Of a DNA stretch of 64,000 bases, positions 3,749-14,046 are shown one piece after another. The notes beneath the pieces were generated by a model, which worked only from the letters and a program-made list of their open reading frames with translations, was not told where the DNA came from and searched no databases. Made by a program: the position numbers and the translations under genes. The first letter of the stretch is position 1, and each line of letters starts with the position of its first letter. The stretch is from Chelatococcus sambhunathii (GTDB lineage Bacteria > Pseudomonadota > Alphaproteobacteria > Rhizobiales > Methylopilaceae): assembly GCA_031316315.1 (NCBI GenBank), contig JADBEO010000005.1:1-64000 (forward strand). Direction: 5' to 3'.

Positions 3749-5563
3749 TCAGTCCGGCAGGCCGAAGGCGATCACCGCGCCGCCCTGACGGAATCCCCAG
3801 ATCTGGCTTCCGCCGGCGGCGACCGCCACATAGTCCTTGTCGTCCAGGCGGTAGGCGATCGGCGGGGCGTTGACGCCGGCGCCCGTGTTGAAGCTCCAGA
3901 CCTTCTGGCCGTTCTTCACGTCGAAGGCCGAGAAGTCGCCATTGCCTTCTCCGGTGAAGACCACGCCGCCCTTCATGGCGAGCACGCCGCCGATCAGCGG
4001 CTCCGGCGTCTTCGTCTGCCACTTCAGCCGGCCGCCTTTGGCCAGGTCGATCGCGCTGAGAAGCCCGTACGTTCCCGAGGTCGCCGGCTCGATGTTGAAG
4101 TAGCGCACCTCCGGCTTGCCGTCGGCGGCCGGGATGACCTGCGAGCGGTAGGTCGCCGGCCAGTGCATGGCCGCGACATAGGCGACGCCTCCGGCGGCGT
4201 CGACGGAGGCCGGCGACCAGTTCGAGCCGCCCGCGACGCCGGGCGCGATGACGACGCCCTCGGGCGTCGGCGGCATGAACAGGTTGGACTGCGGCACGAA
4301 GGGCTCGGATTTGAACAGAAGCTCGCCGGTCTCTCGATCGTGGACGAAGTACCAGCCGAGCTTCGACGCCTGCCCGACCGCGGCGCGCTTCTTGCCGTCG
4401 ACCACGACGTCGAACAGGCTCGGCGGGCTCGCCACGTCGTAGCCCCACAGGTCGTGCGGCGTTTGCTGGTAGCTCCAGCGCACCCGGCCGGTCTTTGCGT
4501 CGAGCGCGACCAGCGACGAGGTGTAGAGATTGTCGCCGGGCCGGCTTTCGCCCGCGACCTGCGGCGACGGATTGCCGACGCCGAAGAACAGCAGGCCGCG
4601 CTCCGGATCGAGCGCCGGCGCGTGCCAGATCGAGCCGCCGCCATATTTCCAGGCGTCCTTGTGATCGGGCGCGGCGGCCTTCTCGGCAGCGACGTCGCGA
4701 TGCATCGGCACGCCATAGGCGGTCGCGACGCGGAATTCGCCCTCCCAGTCCGGCTTGGTCGTGTCGAAGCGCCAGAGCTGTTCGCCGGTCTTGGCGTCAT
4801 AGGCTGCGAGAAAGCCGGGCCGGCCATAGCGGCCGGCGACGCCGACCACGGCGCCGAGCGGCGCGCCCGGCCGCGGGCCGTCGAGGTGCAGGCCGTAGCC
4901 GACGCCGGTGATGCCGGCGAAGACCTTGCCGTCATAGACGAGCGGCGCGGAATTCGAGCCGACGCCGGTCGCCCCCGAAACCTGGCCCTTCATCACCGGA
5001 TCGTTCTGATCGAGCGTCCTGGCGTCCTCGCTGGTCAGGACGTCGTCGGCGTCGACCAGCGGCTTGTCCCAGACCGGCTTGCCGGTCTTGACGTCCAGCG
5101 CGACCAGCCGGGCGTCGACGGTCGCAACGAAGACCAGCCCGTAGCCGAGCGCGACGCCGCGGTTCGCGGGCCCGCAGCACAGCTTCTTCGCAGTGGATTT
5201 GTGCTCGTAGCGCCAGATCTCCCGGCCGGTTTTCGCGTCGATCGCCATGACATGGGAGAAGGGCGCCGAGAGGTACATGACGCCGTCGGCGACGAGCGGC
5301 GACGTCTGGAAGGTCGCCGCGTAGCCGGTCTGGTAGATCCACTTGGGGACGAGGCGCTTGACCGTCTCGGGCGTGATGCGGTCCAGCGGCGAGAAGCGCT
5401 GGCCGCCATAGTCCCGCCCCGGCAGTATCCAGTCGACGCGATCGGGGTCGCCCGCCGCGCGCAGCCGGGCGTCGTCGATCTGATCGGCGGCCGCCGCGCC
5501 GGCGAGAAGCGCGAGGGCGGCGAGCGTCGCGGCCGGCCGGCGCAAGGAGAAAGCAGGTTTCAT
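3749..5563 (-). CDS. Atypical PQQ-dependent dehydrogenase (quinoprotein)
   Basis: A periplasmic beta-propeller quinoprotein of 604 aa with a signal peptide (ALALLAGAAAA). Supporting motifs: DWILPGRDYGGQRFSPL, repeated W-docking motifs (DAKTGREIWRYE, DAKTGEQLWRF, DVKNGQKVWSF), the vicinal Cys-Cys pair of PQQ alcohol dehydrogenases at 129-130, SIWHAPALD around 312 and GVGNPSP around 328. Odd points: where methanol and ethanol dehydrogenases have W-D-x-(D/A), this protein reads LWGYD (372-376), with Gly in place of the usual catalytic Asp. The metal-ligand Glu segment (GAEFG-like) also reads AGRYGRPG. There is no CxxCH haem motif. A good Shine-Dalgarno (AAGGAGAG) precedes the ATG. Canonical MxaF or XoxF is unlikely; the substrate is unknown. 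Confidence 0.8.
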   Translation of the reverse strand: MKPAFSLRRPAATLAALALLAGAAAADQIDDARLRAAGDPDRVDWILPGRDYGGQRFSPLDRITPETVKRLVPKWIYQTGYAATFQTSPLVADGVMYLSAPFSHVMAIDAKTGREIWRYEHKSTAKKLCCGPANRGVALGYGLVFVATVDARLVALDVKTGKPVWDKPLVDADDVLTSEDARTLDQNDPVMKGQVSGATGVGSNSAPLVYDGKVFAGITGVGYGLHLDGPRPGAPLGAVVGVAGRYGRPGFLAAYDAKTGEQLWRFDTTKPDWEGEFRVATAYGVPMHRDVAAEKAAAPDHKDAWKYGGGSIWHAPALDPERGLLFFGVGNPSPQVAGESRPGDNLYTSSLVALDAKTGRVRWSYQQTPHDLWGYDVASPPSLFDVVVDGKKRAAVGQASKLGWYFVHDRETGELLFKSEPFVPQSNLFMPPTPEGVVIAPGVAGGSNWSPASVDAAGGVAYVAAMHWPATYRSQVIPAADGKPEVRYFNIEPATSGTYGLLSAIDLAKGGRLKWQTKTPEPLIGGVLAMKGGVVFTGEGNGDFSAFDVKNGQKVWSFNTGAGVNAPPIAYRLDDKDYVAVAAGGSQIWGFRQGGAVIAFGLPD

Positions 5564-5893
5564 GAAGCGTCTCTCCTTGCGGCCGTGTGATCTTTTAGAA
5601 CGCGTGGCGAAAGGCGAAGCTGCGAATTGGGCTACTCGCCAAAAGTAGAACGTCTCTACATGGAAACGAGCGCCTTGAGCGTCCGCTCCGAGCGATCACT
5701 TTGGCGATGACGCGTTAAAACAGTCAAACGCGCCTAAGCATTTAATAATAATGTTGTAAAACAGCATCTTAGCCGATCCAATAGTTCCCGCCACACTCAT
5801 GGCGGATTGATGGCCGGGCGGTCTCTCCCTTACACAATTCCGGCGACGGTCTGCGGCGCAGCGCGCGTGATTTGCGTTCGGGGGATGCTCCAA
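5564..5893. other. Divergent intergenic region between PQQ dehydrogenase and TonB receptor
   Basis: 330 bases that must hold the promoters of both divergent genes. It has an AT-rich stretch (about 5715-5770) and a small inverted repeat GTAGA-N5-TCTAC at 5645-5659. The reading frame of the TonB receptor extends into it, but without a signal peptide or ribosome site. I see no gene here. Confidence 0.5.
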
Positions 5894-8335
5894 ATGAAAA
5901 ACAAAATAGGCGTCGGGCTCCTGATCGGGACCGCGAGCATTCTGGCGCTCGCGCCCCGCGCGGCTTTCGCGCAGGAAGGCGGAACGACCCAGCTCGAGGA
6001 CATCGACGTCATCGGCACCACCCCGATCGGCGGCGACGGGCTGAACATCGACAAGATCCCCGGCAACGTCCGCAGCATCAAGGGCGACGCGCTCCGTTCG
6101 TCCGACTACGCCACGGTGCAGGAGGGCGTGGCGCAGCAGTCGCCCAGTCTTCACTCGAGCGACGTCACAGGCAATCCCTTCAACAAGGAGATCTTCTTCC
6201 GCGGCTTCCAGTCCTCGCCGACGGTCGGCGTGCCGCAGGGCCTTGCGGTCTATCAGAACGGCGTGCGCATCAACGAGGCGCTCGGCGACTCGGTCAACTA
6301 CGACCTGATCCCCTCGGTCGCGATCGACCGCACCGACATCTGGACCAACAATCCGGTCTTCGGCCTGAACGCGCTCGGCGGCGCCATCAGCTTCCAGACC
6401 AAGAACGGCTTCACCTATCAGGGGCTCGAATTCGAGACCCAGATGGGGTCGTTCGGCCGCTATCAGGGCTCGGCCCAGTGGGGCGTCCAGAAGGGGCCGT
6501 GGGCGGGCTACATCGCGATCGAGGGCGCGCGGGACGGCGGCTGGCGGGACTTCTCGGAGTCGAACAACAAGAAGGTGTTCGGCGACGTCGGCTACAAGTC
6601 CGACAAGGCCGAGATCCACCTCAACGTCACCTACGCCGACAGCAAGCTGGGCGTGGTCGGCCCGACGCCCTTCCAGCTTCTCGATCAGCGCCGCCGCGCG
6701 GTCTATACCGGCGACCAGATCAACGAAAACGAGATGGGCATGGTGAACTTGCAGGGCAAGTTCGAGGTGACGGACGCCTGGTCGATCCAGGCCAACGCCT
6801 ATTACCGCAAGTTCAATCGTGACGGCGTCGACGGCAACGACACCGACGTCGGGCCGTGCGAGAACAATCCGAAGTTCCTTTGCCTCGAGGCCGAGGAGTT
6901 TCCGGGCGTCGACGACGACGATCGTCGCCTCTGGGTTCGCGATCCGGTGACCGGCAAGCGCGTCAGGAACCGCTGGTTCCCTAACGACGAGAGCAAATTC
7001 GGCCCTGGCTCCACGCCCGGCTCGATCGAGCGCTCGCGCGTCCGCGCCGACCAGGCCGGCGGCACCTTCCAGGCGACCAACGAGTCCGAGTTCTTCGGCC
7101 GGAAGAACCACTTTGTGTTCGGCGTCAGCTACGACTACGGCAAGACCGACTTCAAGGGATGGAGCGAGATCTGCATCATCCCCGGCAACCTGCAGTGCAT
7201 CGGCACGGGCCAGCAGTACTACACCCAGATTCCGGGCGGCATCACGCCGGTCGACATCACCGGCACCAACCATTACGTCGGCCTCTACGCGACGGATACG
7301 CTGGATCTCACCGACCGGCTGTCCGCCACGCTCGGCGCGCGCTGGAACTACGCGCAGATCCAGATCGCCGACCACGGCGAGCTGTTCCCGATCAAGCCGA
7401 ACGGCCAGCGCGCCGGTCCGGGCCTCGACGGCACGCATGAGTTCAACCGCTTCAACCCGATGGGCGGCCTGACCTACAAGATCACGCCGGACATCACCGC
7501 GTTCGGCTCCTACTCCGAATCGAACCGCGCCCCGACGCCGCTCGAGCTCGGCTGCGCCAATCCGAACGTGCCGTGCCCGCTCGAGGCGACGCTGGTCTCC
7601 GACCCGCCGCTCAAGCAGGTCGTCACCCGGACCGGCGAAGCCGGCTTCCGCGGCAAGCACGAATTCTCCGGCGCGCTGGTGAACTGGAGCGCGGCGGTCT
7701 ACCGCGCCGAGAACAAGAACGATATCGTCAACGTCCCGAGCGCCATCACCGGCCGCGGCTACTTCGTCGACGGCGGCAAGACCCGCCGCCAGGGCGTCGA
7801 ACTGTCCGGCCAGCTCTCGGCCGAGCGCTGGGCGATCTACGCCAACTACTCCTATATCGACGCGACTTTCCGGAAGGGCGTCCGTCTCAACTCGAACAGC
7901 CCGGCCGCGAAGGGCGGCGTCATTCAGGTAAGCAGAGGCGACAAGCTGACCGGCATCCCGGATCACCAGCTCAAGTTCGGCGGCGCCTTCAAAGTGACTC
8001 CGAAGTGGAGCGTGGGCGCGGACGTGCTCGTCATGAGCGGCCAGCGCTATGTCGGCGACGAGAGCAACCAGTTCCCGAAGCTGCCGGGCTACGGCATCGT
8101 CAACGTCAACACCTCGTTCCAGGCGACGGAGCAGCTCAGGGTGTTCGGCGGGATTAAGAACCTGTTCGACAAGAAGTACGCCACCTACGGCACCTTCTTC
8201 GAGACCGACGACATCGGCTTCCTCAACCTAACCGACCCGCGCTCCATCACGCCGGCCCGGCCGATCACTTTCTATGGCGGGATCAACATGAAGTTCGCCG
8301 CCGAGGCCGCGCCGGTCCTCGTCACCAAGTACTGA
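5894..8335 (+). CDS. TonB-dependent receptor, substrate unknown (candidate for PQQ or metal-chelate uptake)
   Basis: An outer-membrane TonB-dependent receptor of 813 aa. I chose the ATG at 5894 because it gives a clean signal peptide (GLLIGTASILALAPRAAFAQ) and has GGGG about 8 bases upstream; upstream in-frame starts add a non-signal extension. The plug contains EIFFRGFQSSP, PQGLAVYQNGVRIN and NALGGAISF; barrel strands follow. A Cys-containing, acid-rich extracellular-type loop (GVDDDDRRLW) lies about residue 340. The plug type differs from the siderophore receptor at 1270-3486. It is divergent from the PQQ dehydrogenase, so uptake of PQQ (as for PqqU) or a metal chelate is a reasonable but unproven guess. 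A rho-independent terminator follows. Confidence 0.85.
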   Translation: MKNKIGVGLLIGTASILALAPRAAFAQEGGTTQLEDIDVIGTTPIGGDGLNIDKIPGNVRSIKGDALRSSDYATVQEGVAQQSPSLHSSDVTGNPFNKEIFFRGFQSSPTVGVPQGLAVYQNGVRINEALGDSVNYDLIPSVAIDRTDIWTNNPVFGLNALGGAISFQTKNGFTYQGLEFETQMGSFGRYQGSAQWGVQKGPWAGYIAIEGARDGGWRDFSESNNKKVFGDVGYKSDKAEIHLNVTYADSKLGVVGPTPFQLLDQRRRAVYTGDQINENEMGMVNLQGKFEVTDAWSIQANAYYRKFNRDGVDGNDTDVGPCENNPKFLCLEAEEFPGVDDDDRRLWVRDPVTGKRVRNRWFPNDESKFGPGSTPGSIERSRVRADQAGGTFQATNESEFFGRKNHFVFGVSYDYGKTDFKGWSEICIIPGNLQCIGTGQQYYTQIPGGITPVDITGTNHYVGLYATDTLDLTDRLSATLGARWNYAQIQIADHGELFPIKPNGQRAGPGLDGTHEFNRFNPMGGLTYKITPDITAFGSYSESNRAPTPLELGCANPNVPCPLEATLVSDPPLKQVVTRTGEAGFRGKHEFSGALVNWSAAVYRAENKNDIVNVPSAITGRGYFVDGGKTRRQGVELSGQLSAERWAIYANYSYIDATFRKGVRLNSNSPAAKGGVIQVSRGDKLTGIPDHQLKFGGAFKVTPKWSVGADVLVMSGQRYVGDESNQFPKLPGYGIVNVNTSFQATEQLRVFGGIKNLFDKKYATYGTFFETDDIGFLNLTDPRSITPARPITFYGGINMKFAAEAAPVLVTKY

Positions 8336-10924: not shown

Positions 10925-11671
10925 TCAGCGCGTCGCCTGCACGCTGCGCATCCGGTCCTCGAAGATCACGAGCCCGGTGAGCAGGCCGGTCCGGAACGCG
11001 CCGGTGTCGAGATTGACGCGGTGCGGATGGTTCAGGTCGAGCGGGATCGTCGGCGTATGTCCGTGGATCACGGCGACCTTCTCCGGATAAGGGCCGGCGC
11101 TGTCGAGCCACGGCCATCGCGTCCACATCAGGGTATGGTCGCTCTGATGGTCGAGCGGGACGTCGGGATCGATGCCGGCATGGGCGAACAGGAGATCGCC
11201 GAGCCGGACCTTGCGCGGCAGGGCCGCGAGCCAGCCGATCAGGTCGGGCCCGAGGGCGTCGGCGAAACGTTCGGGCCAGTCTCGGTCGTCGGCGTCGACG
11301 CCGGACGAGGCGAGCGTCTCGACGCCGCCGAAGCCGAGCCAGGCTTCGCGTTCGTGCGGATCGCGTCCGAAGATTGCGCGAAGCATGCGGTCCTCGTGGT
11401 TGCCCATGACGGCGATGGTCGGCGTTCCGGCGAGGCCCGCGCGCGCCCGCTTCAGGGCGGAAAGACTCGCAGGGCCCCTGTCGACCAGATCGCCGAGCTG
11501 CACGATGCGCGCCGATGCGGCGCCGGCGAGATCTTCGGCGACGGCGTCGCCAACCGCCGCGAACAGGTCGTCATGGCCGTGGACGTCGCCGATCGCAGCG
11601 ACCGCCTGGCCGGGCGCGAGCGGGCGGATGGCGGGCCGCCACGGTCCGCGACGGATGGCGATGGCGCTCAT
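10925..11671 (-). CDS. PPP-family metallophosphoesterase (bis(5'-nucleosyl)-tetraphosphatase / Ser-Thr phosphatase type)
   Basis: 248 aa with all metal-binding motifs of the PPP superfamily in order: GDVHGH (about 28), GDLVDRG (about 60), GNHE (about 90), FAHAGID (about 163) and IHGHT (about 202). These ligate a di-metal centre that hydrolyses phosphoesters. The short length and lack of extra domains fit bacterial symmetrical Ap4A hydrolases and PrpA/PrpB-type protein phosphatases alike; sequence alone does not separate them. It is a single gene, downstream of lanmodulin on the same strand but separated from it by a terminator. Confidence 0.85.
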   Translation of the reverse strand: MSAIAIRRGPWRPAIRPLAPGQAVAAIGDVHGHDDLFAAVGDAVAEDLAGAASARIVQLGDLVDRGPASLSALKRARAGLAGTPTIAVMGNHEDRMLRAIFGRDPHEREAWLGFGGVETLASSGVDADDRDWPERFADALGPDLIGWLAALPRKVRLGDLLFAHAGIDPDVPLDHQSDHTLMWTRWPWLDSAGPYPEKVAVIHGHTPTIPLDLNHPHRVNLDTGAFRTGLLTGLVIFEDRMRSVQATR

Positions 11672-11709
11672 GAGGCGAGACCTATGGCGCTCACGCGCCG
11701 CGCGCCAAG

Positions 11710-11737
11710 AAAAAAGCCCGCGCCTTGCGGCGCGGGC
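11710..11737 (-). terminator. Rho-independent terminator of lanmodulin gene
   Basis: Read on the minus strand: GCCCGCGCC, loop GCAA, GGCGCGGGC, then six T residues. It starts about 20 bases after the lanmodulin stop codon. Confidence 0.9.
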
Positions 11738-11758
11738 CGAACGGGACCGAAGTCCGGA

Positions 11759-12169
11759 TTACTTGACGATCATCAGGATGACGGCCTGGCCGGCCGGCGT
11801 GTCCAGCTCGGCGGCGTCGAGCGAGCCGTCCTTGTCGGGATTCGCCTTGGCGAAGCGTTTGCGCAGGATCGAGAGCCACTCGTCCATCTCCAGCGTCTTG
11901 TCGCCGTCCTTGTTGGCCTGCTTCCACTCCTTCTCGGTGATGCGGCCGGCGGTCTCGTTGCTCTCGAGGGTCGTGTCGCCGTCCGGATTGATCTCCGCGA
12001 ACAGTTTCACGCCGAGGTTGATCACCTCCGCGAGCTCGAGCGTCTGATCGTTGTCCTTGTTGTATTTCTTGATGACGTCAGCGCCGGACATCTTGGACTG
12101 GGCGAAGGCCGGCGCGGCGGTCAGGGCAACGGCGGCGAGGGCGGCGCCGGCGGCGAGGCGGAAGTTCAT
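11759..12169 (-). CDS. lanM: Lanmodulin-like periplasmic lanthanide-binding EF-hand protein
   Basis: 136 aa: a signal peptide (to about residue 24) and four 12-residue EF-hand loops at 37-48 (NKDNDQTLELAE), 61-72 (NPDGDTTLESNE), 86-97 (NKDGDKTLEMDE) and 110-121 (NPDKDGSLDAAE). The inter-loop spacing of 12, 13 and 12 residues is the lanmodulin signature; calmodulin-type pairs are spaced about twice as far. The C-terminus (TPAGQAVILMIVK) also matches lanmodulins. Pro at loop position 2 occurs only in loops 2 and 4; position 1 is Asn in all; position 9 is Glu in loops 1-3. From memory this pattern is closer to the Hansschlegelia-type lanmodulin than to that of Methylorubrum. It binds rare-earth ions in the periplasm. 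The gene has its own ribosome site (AAGAGGAG) and terminator. Confidence 0.88.
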   Translation of the reverse strand: MNFRLAAGAALAAVALTAAPAFAQSKMSGADVIKKYNKDNDQTLELAEVINLGVKLFAEINPDGDTTLESNETAGRITEKEWKQANKDGDKTLEMDEWLSILRKRFAKANPDKDGSLDAAELDTPAGQAVILMIVK

Positions 12170-12540
12170 GAGAGGCTCCTCTTAATAATAAGAACGGACT
12201 GGCGACATTGTGGTTACGTCAGCCGCGGATACAGCGAGTCGATCTGTGCTGCGGCGCGCACATACGCAAGGTGAACTTGATAAGAAACAAATAAAGTCAA
12301 GACGGCAGTCTTCAAGCGCGTGACGCGGCGAACGGACGCAAACTTTGCGCGGCGTGGCGCGGCGCTCGACCATGCGACCGTTGTTGGAGCCGTTCCAAAA
12401 AGATCAAGGGGTGAGGCGGACCCGCCGACGCGCGCGGCAGCGATGCGCGCCCAAATACGCGCGCGAGCAAGCCGAACCGGACGTCGGCGCCCCAGCGCGC
12501 GCTTCTGGTCCGCTCCGCCCTGATCCCTCGCGGGGACGCT
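12170..12540. other. Intergenic region upstream of lanmodulin
   Basis: 371 bases between the end of phaZ and the start of lanM, both on the minus strand. The AT-richer part (12180-12310) should hold the lanM promoter and leader. The rest is very GC-rich with no supportable gene. The ribosome site lies in AGAGG-AG-CCTCT, a short dyad directly before the ATG. Confidence 0.45.
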
Positions 12541-14046
12541 TCAGTCGACGGCTTCGCTTTGCGGCGTCTGCGCGCCCGCTCGTCTTGATGCGGCCTTCCG
12601 CTTCGGAGCCGGATCGGGGCTCTCGGGGGCGTCCCCCGAAACGAGCGGGGCGATCGGCGGAACGTCCTCACCCGCGGAGACGCCCTCCGTCTCGGCCGGG
12701 CGCGGCGTCGGCCCCGGCTTCGCGGCGGCGCGCGGTTCGTTCGACAGGATGAAGTCGCCGATGCGCGGCGCGATCTCCGCGCGGAAGCGCGAGCCGTTGA
12801 ACACGCCGTAATGGCCGACGCGCTCCTGGAGGTAGTGGACCTTCTTGTCCTCGGGCAGGCTGGAGCAGAGCGTCTGCGCGGCTTGCGTCTGGCCGACGCC
12901 GGAGATGTCGTCCCGCTCGCCCTCGACGGTCATCAGCGCGCAGCGGCGGATCTTCGAGCAATCGACGAGCTTGCCGCGATGGGTCATCTCGCCCTTCGGC
13001 AGCGCATGGCGCACGAAGACGGTCTCGACGGTCTGAAGGTAGAACTCGGCCGTCAGGTCCATCACCGCGAGATACTCGTCGTAGAACTCGCGGTGCTTCT
13101 CGGCCGAGTCGCCGTCGCCGTCGACGAGATGGTTGAAGAAGTCGTAGTGCGCCGACATGTGGCGGTCGAGGTTCATCGACACGAAGCCGGTGAGCTGCAG
13201 AAAGCCCGGATAGACCTGCCGCATCATGCCCGGATGGGGCCAGGGCACGACGGTGACGACGTTGCGCGCGAACCAAGCGGTGCCGCGCTCGATCGCCAGC
13301 TGGTTCACGGCGGTCGGGTTGGCGCGCGTGTCGATCGGGCCGCCCATCAGCGTCATCGACCGCGGCACGAAGGGATCGTCCTCGGCCTCCATCCGGGCGA
13401 CGGCCGCGAGCACCGGCACGGCGGGCTGGCAGACCGCCATGACGTGGATCTCGCCCTTCAGGAAGCGGAACATCGAGATCAGGTAGTCGATGTAGTCGTC
13501 GAGGTCGAAGGCGCCCTCGGTGAGCGGCACAAGCCGGGCGTCGGTCCAGTCGGTGACGTAGACGTCGTGGTCGGGCAGCATCGCCTCGACCGTGCCGCGC
13601 AGCAGCGTGGCGTAGTGGCCGGACATGGGCGCCACGATCAGCAGCTTCGGCTGCTTGCGGGAGCGCTCCCCGAGCCCCCGCTCGAAGCGGATGAGATCGC
13701 AGAACGGCCTGCTCCAGACGACGCGCTCGGTGACCGGCACGCGCTCGCCGCGCACGGACGTCTCCCTGATGCCGAACTCGGGCTTGCCGTAGCGGCGGGT
13801 CGCGCGCTCGAACACTTCGCACATCGCGCCGATCTTGCGGCCCCATTCGGTGTGGGCGGCGGGATTGATCGGGTTCTTGAAATACAGGCGGCCGGCGTCG
13901 GCCATGGCGCGCGCCGGCCCGAGCGAGGCCTGCGCGGCCTCGAACATCCAGTAGAGCGGCATCGATGTCGCCGAGCCGCCCCACTCCGTCTGGATCGGGG
14001 CCCCGCCGAACTCGCCGATCCCGCCTCTCTTGCCGTCCCGAGCCAT
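12541..14046 (-). CDS. phaZ: Intracellular polyhydroxyalkanoate depolymerase
   Basis: A 501-aa alpha/beta-hydrolase-type PHB depolymerase (TIGR01849 type). It has the N-terminal pattern MPLYWMFEAAQASLGPAR, then KLLIVAPMSGHYATLLRGTVE, VYVTDWTDAR, and the nucleophile region MAVCQPAVPVLAA. That nucleophile is Cys instead of Ser, typical of this family. HYGVFNGSRFR near the C-terminus supplies the catalytic His. A proline/alanine-rich tail of about 60 residues follows. ATG 14046 follows GAGGGGCG; an upstream in-frame extension is not credible. It would mobilise carbon stored from serine-cycle acetyl-CoA. It is divergent from the redox kinase gene. Confidence 0.9.
   Translation of the reverse strand: MARDGKRGGIGEFGGAPIQTEWGGSATSMPLYWMFEAAQASLGPARAMADAGRLYFKNPINPAAHTEWGRKIGAMCEVFERATRRYGKPEFGIRETSVRGERVPVTERVVWSRPFCDLIRFERGLGERSRKQPKLLIVAPMSGHYATLLRGTVEAMLPDHDVYVTDWTDARLVPLTEGAFDLDDYIDYLISMFRFLKGEIHVMAVCQPAVPVLAAVARMEAEDDPFVPRSMTLMGGPIDTRANPTAVNQLAIERGTAWFARNVVTVVPWPHPGMMRQVYPGFLQLTGFVSMNLDRHMSAHYDFFNHLVDGDGDSAEKHREFYDEYLAVMDLTAEFYLQTVETVFVRHALPKGEMTHRGKLVDCSKIRRCALMTVEGERDDISGVGQTQAAQTLCSSLPEDKKVHYLQERVGHYGVFNGSRFRAEIAPRIGDFILSNEPRAAAKPGPTPRPAETEGVSAGEDVPPIAPLVSGDAPESPDPAPKRKAASRRAGAQTPQSEAVD

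Follow-up and report, generated by a model that had tools for sequence, protein, structure and literature searches.

Lanmodulins are recognized by a small set of hallmarks: as set out in the excerpted text of PMC10232371, a protein of <200 residues carries four EF loops, adjacent EF hands lie 12-13 residues apart, at least one EF hand has a proline at position 2 (Pro2), the fold is a three-helix bundle with peripheral metal sites, and lanthanides are bound very tightly and in preference to Ca. In Hans-LanM from Hansschlegelia quercus (structures 8dq2 and 8fnr), the EF hands form the pairs EF1-EF4 and EF2-EF3, and La is bound at EF1-3 through N1, D3, D5, E9 and E12 plus a backbone carbonyl (PMC10232371). 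Arg100 of one monomer touches Asp85 and Glu91 in the EF3 of its partner, with Asp93 as a buttress, and an R100K substitution yields more monomer, most so with La (PMC10232371). These four residues are fully conserved in a published cluster of 20 Hans-type sequences that includes Methylopila, and single-stage Nd/Dy separation has been achieved with Hans-LanM (PMC10232371).

Here we describe a further, well-supported member of this already published cluster, encoded at 11759-12169 on the minus strand of the window, i.e., the 64,000-nucleotide stretch of DNA analyzed. From its ATG start codon, the ORF encodes 136 amino acids. Residues 1-24 (12098-12169, minus strand) are a putative N-terminal signal peptide with a hydrophobic start and an AxA-type end (AFAQ), and the coinciding residues 1-23 have a pLDDT <50 in the structure model. 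The loop alignment places four EF loops on the same strand: EF1 (NKDNDQTLELAE, residues 37-48, 12026-12061, N1/D3/D5/E9/E12), EF2 (NPDGDTTLESNE, residues 61-72, 11954-11989, N1/P2/D3/D5/E9/E12), EF3 (NKDGDKTLEMDE, residues 86-97, 11879-11914, whose D11 is the equivalent of Hans Asp93) and a complete, Mex-type EF4 (NPDKDGSLDAAE, residues 110-121, 11807-11842, N1/P2/D3/D5/D9/E12). The first-pass annotation had described four loops spaced 12, 13 and 12 residues apart, with Asn at position 1 of all four, Pro2 in two and Glu instead of Asp at position 9 of loops 1-3, and each of these points was borne out, with Pro2 falling in EF2 and EF4 and Asp9 in EF4. The array is not a product of chance: exactly one four-loop 12/13/12 array occurs in the six frames of the window, and when the protein sequence was shuffled 200,000 times, the array never reappeared.

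The window protein thus combines the length, loop number, spacing and Pro2 expected of a lanmodulin, and its predicted model matches the lanmodulin fold, a three-helix bundle with peripheral metal sites. It also shows the traits of the Hans type, i.e., N1 and E9 in EF1-3 and, in the alignment, the residues of the Arg100-EF3 network. In a phmmer search against PDB chains, four sequences matched at E ≤ 0.01, led by Hans-LanM (8dq2, E = 3e-44) and a lanthanum-bound protein from Ancylobacter lacus (9pi2, E = 4.8e-39) and followed by the two Mex-LanM entries (8fns, E = 3.1e-20; 6mi5, E = 3.5e-20). The alignment with Methylorubrum and Hansschlegelia lanmodulins proposed in the first-pass annotation placed the protein closer to the latter, as that annotation had supposed. 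An AlphaFold2 model built from a 13-sequence alignment (the window protein and 12 relatives, including the H. quercus protein L017) reached a mean pLDDT of 84, and the only PDB structures that Foldseek matched to it at E ≤ 0.001 were the lanmodulins 8dq2, 8fnr, 8fns and 6mi5. The model agreed with 8dq2 at TMt 0.97 (TMq 0.79, rmsd 0.9, 66% identity) and with Nd-bound Mex-LanM 8fns at TMt 0.91 (rmsd 1.2, 39% identity), while calmodulin-type structures, ranking after these four, reached a TMq of only ~0.3. Taken with the trees described below, these results leave us highly confident that the gene encodes a lanmodulin of the Hans subtype.

The window protein scored 115.1 bits against the NCBIfam lanmodulin equivalog NF053806, below the curated cut-off of 135 bits, as did H. 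quercus LanM itself (102.4 bits), the best-studied Hans-type lanmodulin, so that by this cut-off neither counts as a member. In all, six Hans-type proteins besides that of the window, H. quercus LanM among them and two entered as partial stretches, scored 101.5-117.9 bits, and both Mex-type proteins tested exceeded the cut-off. Within its own genome, the window gene was the only match to a LanM query at E ≤ 0.001. A Pfam EF-hand search of the same genome did not list it and returned three other EF-hand proteins, on contigs C5, C29 and C13, with loop spacings of 12/27/12, 12/26/11 and 19, respectively, and no Pro2.

We next placed the protein among its relatives. The source genome belongs to the same genus group as Methylopila and Hansschlegelia. 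Within the genus, the search covered 13 genomes, counting the one that carries the window, and every one had a lanM match; outside the genus, one of five genomes of the same family matched weakly (E = 7.3e-5), through a protein whose loops have no Pro2. Order-wide, 61 of 397 genomes matched a Hans-type profile at E ≤ 1e-6, with full-length Hans-type proteins above 200 bits, Mex-range proteins at 69-114 bits and other EF-hand proteins at up to about 48 bits; a frameshifted Hans-type gene scored 139 bits. The named genomes contributed 15 loci, from Methylopila, Hansschlegelia, Xanthobacter, Ancylobacter and Chenggangzhangella. Two copies occur in Hansschlegelia beijingensis (L036 and L038, both Hans-type, one in the phaZ slot described below and the other elsewhere), and the lanM of Chenggangzhangella methanolivorans (G008, L045 10001-10386) is frameshifted in the assembly.

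A maximum likelihood tree of 34 rows with the EF4 columns removed (tree 1; 18 Hans-type rows and 16 Mex-type rows chosen from 39 extracted, mostly with four regular loops) split Hans-type from Mex-type proteins at 100/100, with the window protein inside the former. Its neighbors there are the LanMs of an uncultured Methylopila MAG (L010, identical to L031; 89% identity to the window protein) and of genome G012 (L011; 86%). Both share EF2, EF3 and EF4 with it and differ at EF1 position 4, the MAG protein also at EF1 position 6, with further small changes outside EF1. A second tree with the EF4 columns kept (tree 2; 18 Hans-type, all 39 Mex-range and 11 other EF-hand rows) again united the 18 Hans-type rows at 100/100, although its columns are few for the number of rows and several branches are long. 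From both trees we omitted G007, whose protein is that of M. capsulata G009. Outside the Hans clade of tree 2, three proteins of family f2 (L091, L106 and L107) form a group of their own at 100/94; they have Hans-like NPDGD-type loops with Glu9 in EF2 and EF4 and an aberrant EF1 or EF3.

The ligands of EF2 and EF3 and the dimer network are constant among the Hans-type proteins. EF2 has N1, P2 and E9 in all 18 rows; in EF3, N1 is present in all 18 rows as well, and E9 in 17 of 17. Equivalents of Asp85, Glu91, Asp93 and Arg100 are kept in all 17 readable rows, including the window protein, where the alignment identifies them as D88, E94, D96 and R103 (11861-11863, minus strand). Arg103 corresponds to the residue at the Hans-LanM dimer interface (PMC10232371). 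The network is nevertheless not a strict Hans marker, as Arg occupies the Arg100 place in one of the 39 Mex-range rows (L087) and Asp the Asp93 place in several. By analogy with Hans-LanM, we propose that the window protein would reside in the periplasm and have little helical structure before it binds lanthanides tightly, its main sites predicted to be EF1-3 through N1, D3, D5, E9 and E12, and that light lanthanides probably favor a dimer by way of the Arg103-EF3 network.

Hans-LanM shares with the window protein the predicted fold, the spacing, the EF1-3 ligands and the network, at 66% identity over the aligned mature part, and differs in EF4, which reads DANKDGKLTAAE there. The Ancylobacter lacus protein likewise has Hans-type EF1-3 and the Arg100 equivalent, but its EF4 is DKNKDGKLTAKE and none of the window's close lanM neighbors occurs within 10 kb of it; our literature search found no paper on 9pi2. 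Mex-LanM of Methylorubrum extorquens (6mi5, 8fns) shares the predicted fold, the spacing and an EF4 of the form N-P-D-x-D-G-x-x-D-x-x-E, and departs from the window protein in its own EF1-3 (D1, P2, D9) and in a Glu at the Arg100 place.

EF4 sets the window protein apart from Hans-LanM, and the complete fourth loop pointed out in the first-pass annotation is real, if not unique. Among the 17 Hans-type rows readable in frame, Pro2 and Asp9 occur together in EF4 of four (window, L031, L011 and Hansschlegelia plantiphila), and the remaining 13 have Thr9 and no Pro2. We also considered that EF4 variability might be confined to the Hans type, and dropped this idea: EF4 varies in the 39 Mex-range rows too, far less often to Thr, with Asp at position 9 in 34, Glu in four and Thr in one (L087), and Pro at position 2 in 36. 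That the window protein has a complete EF4 is a genuine difference, though a modest one, and a few relatives share it. In the publications and passages searched, we found no description of a Hans-type LanM with an intact EF4; Supplementary Fig. 23 of PMC10232371 may already show one.

The intact EF4 of the window protein may be either retained or regained. EF4 state changes at least three times on a tree of five neighbor genes from 12 genomes and at least twice on the LanM tree from which the EF4 columns had been removed, both counts including C. methanolivorans, which is scored intact from the out-of-frame L029 and is therefore a weak data point. On the latter tree, one can place all degenerate rows in a single clade (AU p = 0.133), or all intact rows (p = 0.066), without either arrangement being rejected. 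Tree 2 draws the intact-EF4 rows as early branches of the Hans clade, a placement that is circular because the EF4 columns were left in.

Two readings differ on what this complete loop does. EF4 may serve here as a fourth site, weaker than the others and comparable to that of Mex-LanM, and we judge the case for such a site to be about evenly balanced. The alternative is a Hans-type lanmodulin with a functionally silent EF4 that behaves just like Hans-LanM. It draws on the complete EF4 of Mex-LanM, which binds with only micromolar affinity, and on the La-Hans-LanM structure, in which EF4 was modelled with Na, and has to be set against crystals that show Nd in EF4 of Mex-LanM and Dy in that of Hans-LanM, degenerate though the latter is (PMC10232371), as well as against the joint presence of Pro2 and Asp9 in the window protein and three relatives, neither residue being found in the 13 Thr9 rows. 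Weighing these points, we give the silent-loop alternative an equal chance of being right or wrong. A natural ortholog that keeps the dimer network and also has a complete EF4 lends itself to comparisons aimed at the role of this loop.

A broader, more tentative proposal concerns the subtype as a whole. EF1 is Hans-like (N1, E9) in 15 of 18 Hans-type rows, and H. plantiphila and C. methanolivorans have a Mex-like one (D1, D9); given the EF1-EF4 pairing, the variable loops form one structural pair. Hans-type LanMs might then consist of an invariant EF2-EF3 pair with the dimer switch and a labile EF1-EF4 pair that can be Hans-like, Mex-like or dead, and the window protein might be a four-site dimerizing hybrid with Hans selectivity and a Mex-type EF4, a scheme that we regard as possible though rather unlikely. 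If true, the Mex-type EF4 of the hybrid would change stoichiometry or cooperativity. As a separate observation, the LanM of Ancylobacter crimeensis (L044 10001-10282) has a degenerate EF1 (GKKPTDTLTVQE) and retains the Hans-type ligands of EF2 and EF3.

The first-pass annotation had also taken the 12/13/12 spacing as typical of lanmodulin, which stands only in part: the spacing is present here, but five EF-hand proteins of the same order without Pro2 (L025, L108, L109, L111 and L114) have it too, so that spacing by itself is no proof of lanmodulin. Because of these five, spacing alone does not decide against the reading that the gene encodes a generic calcium-type EF-hand protein of bacteria with only the short spacing in common with lanmodulins. 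This reading is highly improbable and was rejected on profile scores, structure match and tree: L108, L109, L111 and L114 score only 33-48 bits on the Hans-type profile and L025 misses its E threshold of 1e-6, the two of the five tested against NF053806 reach 46.5 and 57.4 bits compared with 115.1 for the window protein, all five lie across a 100/100 branch from it in tree 2, and the window protein groups with a protein of solved lanthanide-bound structure. The grouping with calcium-type EF-hand proteins that had been named as a refutation was absent. In tree 2, the five and L116 make up a single group at 100/100, separate from the lanmodulins.

The Hans-type assignment extends to genomic position. 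The order phaZ-lanM-metallophosphatase found in the window is the slot of H. quercus lanM; phaZ adjoins lanM in 10 of the 15 named loci, H. quercus included, and in G012, and in 9 of these 11 phaZ-lanM loci the metallophosphatase follows lanM as in the window; for the remaining two, M. turkensis and M. jiangsuensis, it had no match on the far side of lanM. Histidine kinase, rpsT, rhodanese and dnaA genes lie near lanM in all 11, on the opposite side of it in H. quercus, H. plantiphila and H. beijingensis. None of the window's lanM neighbors occurs within the searched flanks of the second H. beijingensis copy or of the Xanthobacter and Ancylobacter loci. Given this conserved phaZ neighborhood, the window gene is the positional ortholog of the Hans-LanM gene. 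Just downstream of lanM lies an intrinsic-terminator-like hairpin (11715-11738, minus strand) whose place and strand fit lanM, although by number it is weak evidence, with one such hairpin found compared with 0.9 expected in shuffles; no sigma-70-type promoter was found in 11600-12600.

The genome also encodes candidate partners. It carries two PQQ methanol dehydrogenases, an XoxF-like one with the motif WDYD (contig C27) and an MxaF-like one with WDYA (contig C13), the second Asp of WDYD being the mark of lanthanide-type methanol dehydrogenases. On the plus strand of the window, 5807-8335 encodes a LutH-like TonB-dependent receptor, 39% identical to a plasmid-borne TonB receptor of M. nodulans whose gene lies one gene from that of a lanmodulin-like EF-hand protein; it is the only match to that receptor in the genome at E ≤ 0.001. 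The receptor gene lies 3.4 kb from lanM and is not adjacent to it, four supported or conserved ORFs standing between them (a TorF-like porin, a conserved hypothetical protein, a YidB-like protein and the metallophosphatase). In M. extorquens, lanM and lutH adjoin within the lut cluster (PMC7391723, excerpted text). We also looked in this genome for lanM in an operon with lut genes and found none. Genes near the xoxF-like gene on C27 include those for an ABC-2 permease, an ABC ATPase, a beta-propeller protein and a periplasmic binding protein, a set that recalls a lut cluster. We suggest that the window LanM, if exported, would buffer or carry periplasmic lanthanides, imported via the LutH-like receptor, for XoxF. 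The cellular role of LanM is unsettled even among other lanM carriers, since in one methanotroph the protein was not confidently detected under Ce or ore treatment, according to the excerpted text of PMC12482762.

A PQQ alcohol-dehydrogenase-family protein is encoded at 3749-5563 on the minus strand, divergently from the LutH-like receptor gene, with orthologs at L031 (93% identical) and in G012 (88%). It has TPHDLWGYD where the two methanol dehydrogenases of the genome have TPHDEWDYD and TPHDEWDYA, the Gly presumably standing in place of the usual catalytic Asp, and from this motif the protein may be inactive as a classical alcohol dehydrogenase.
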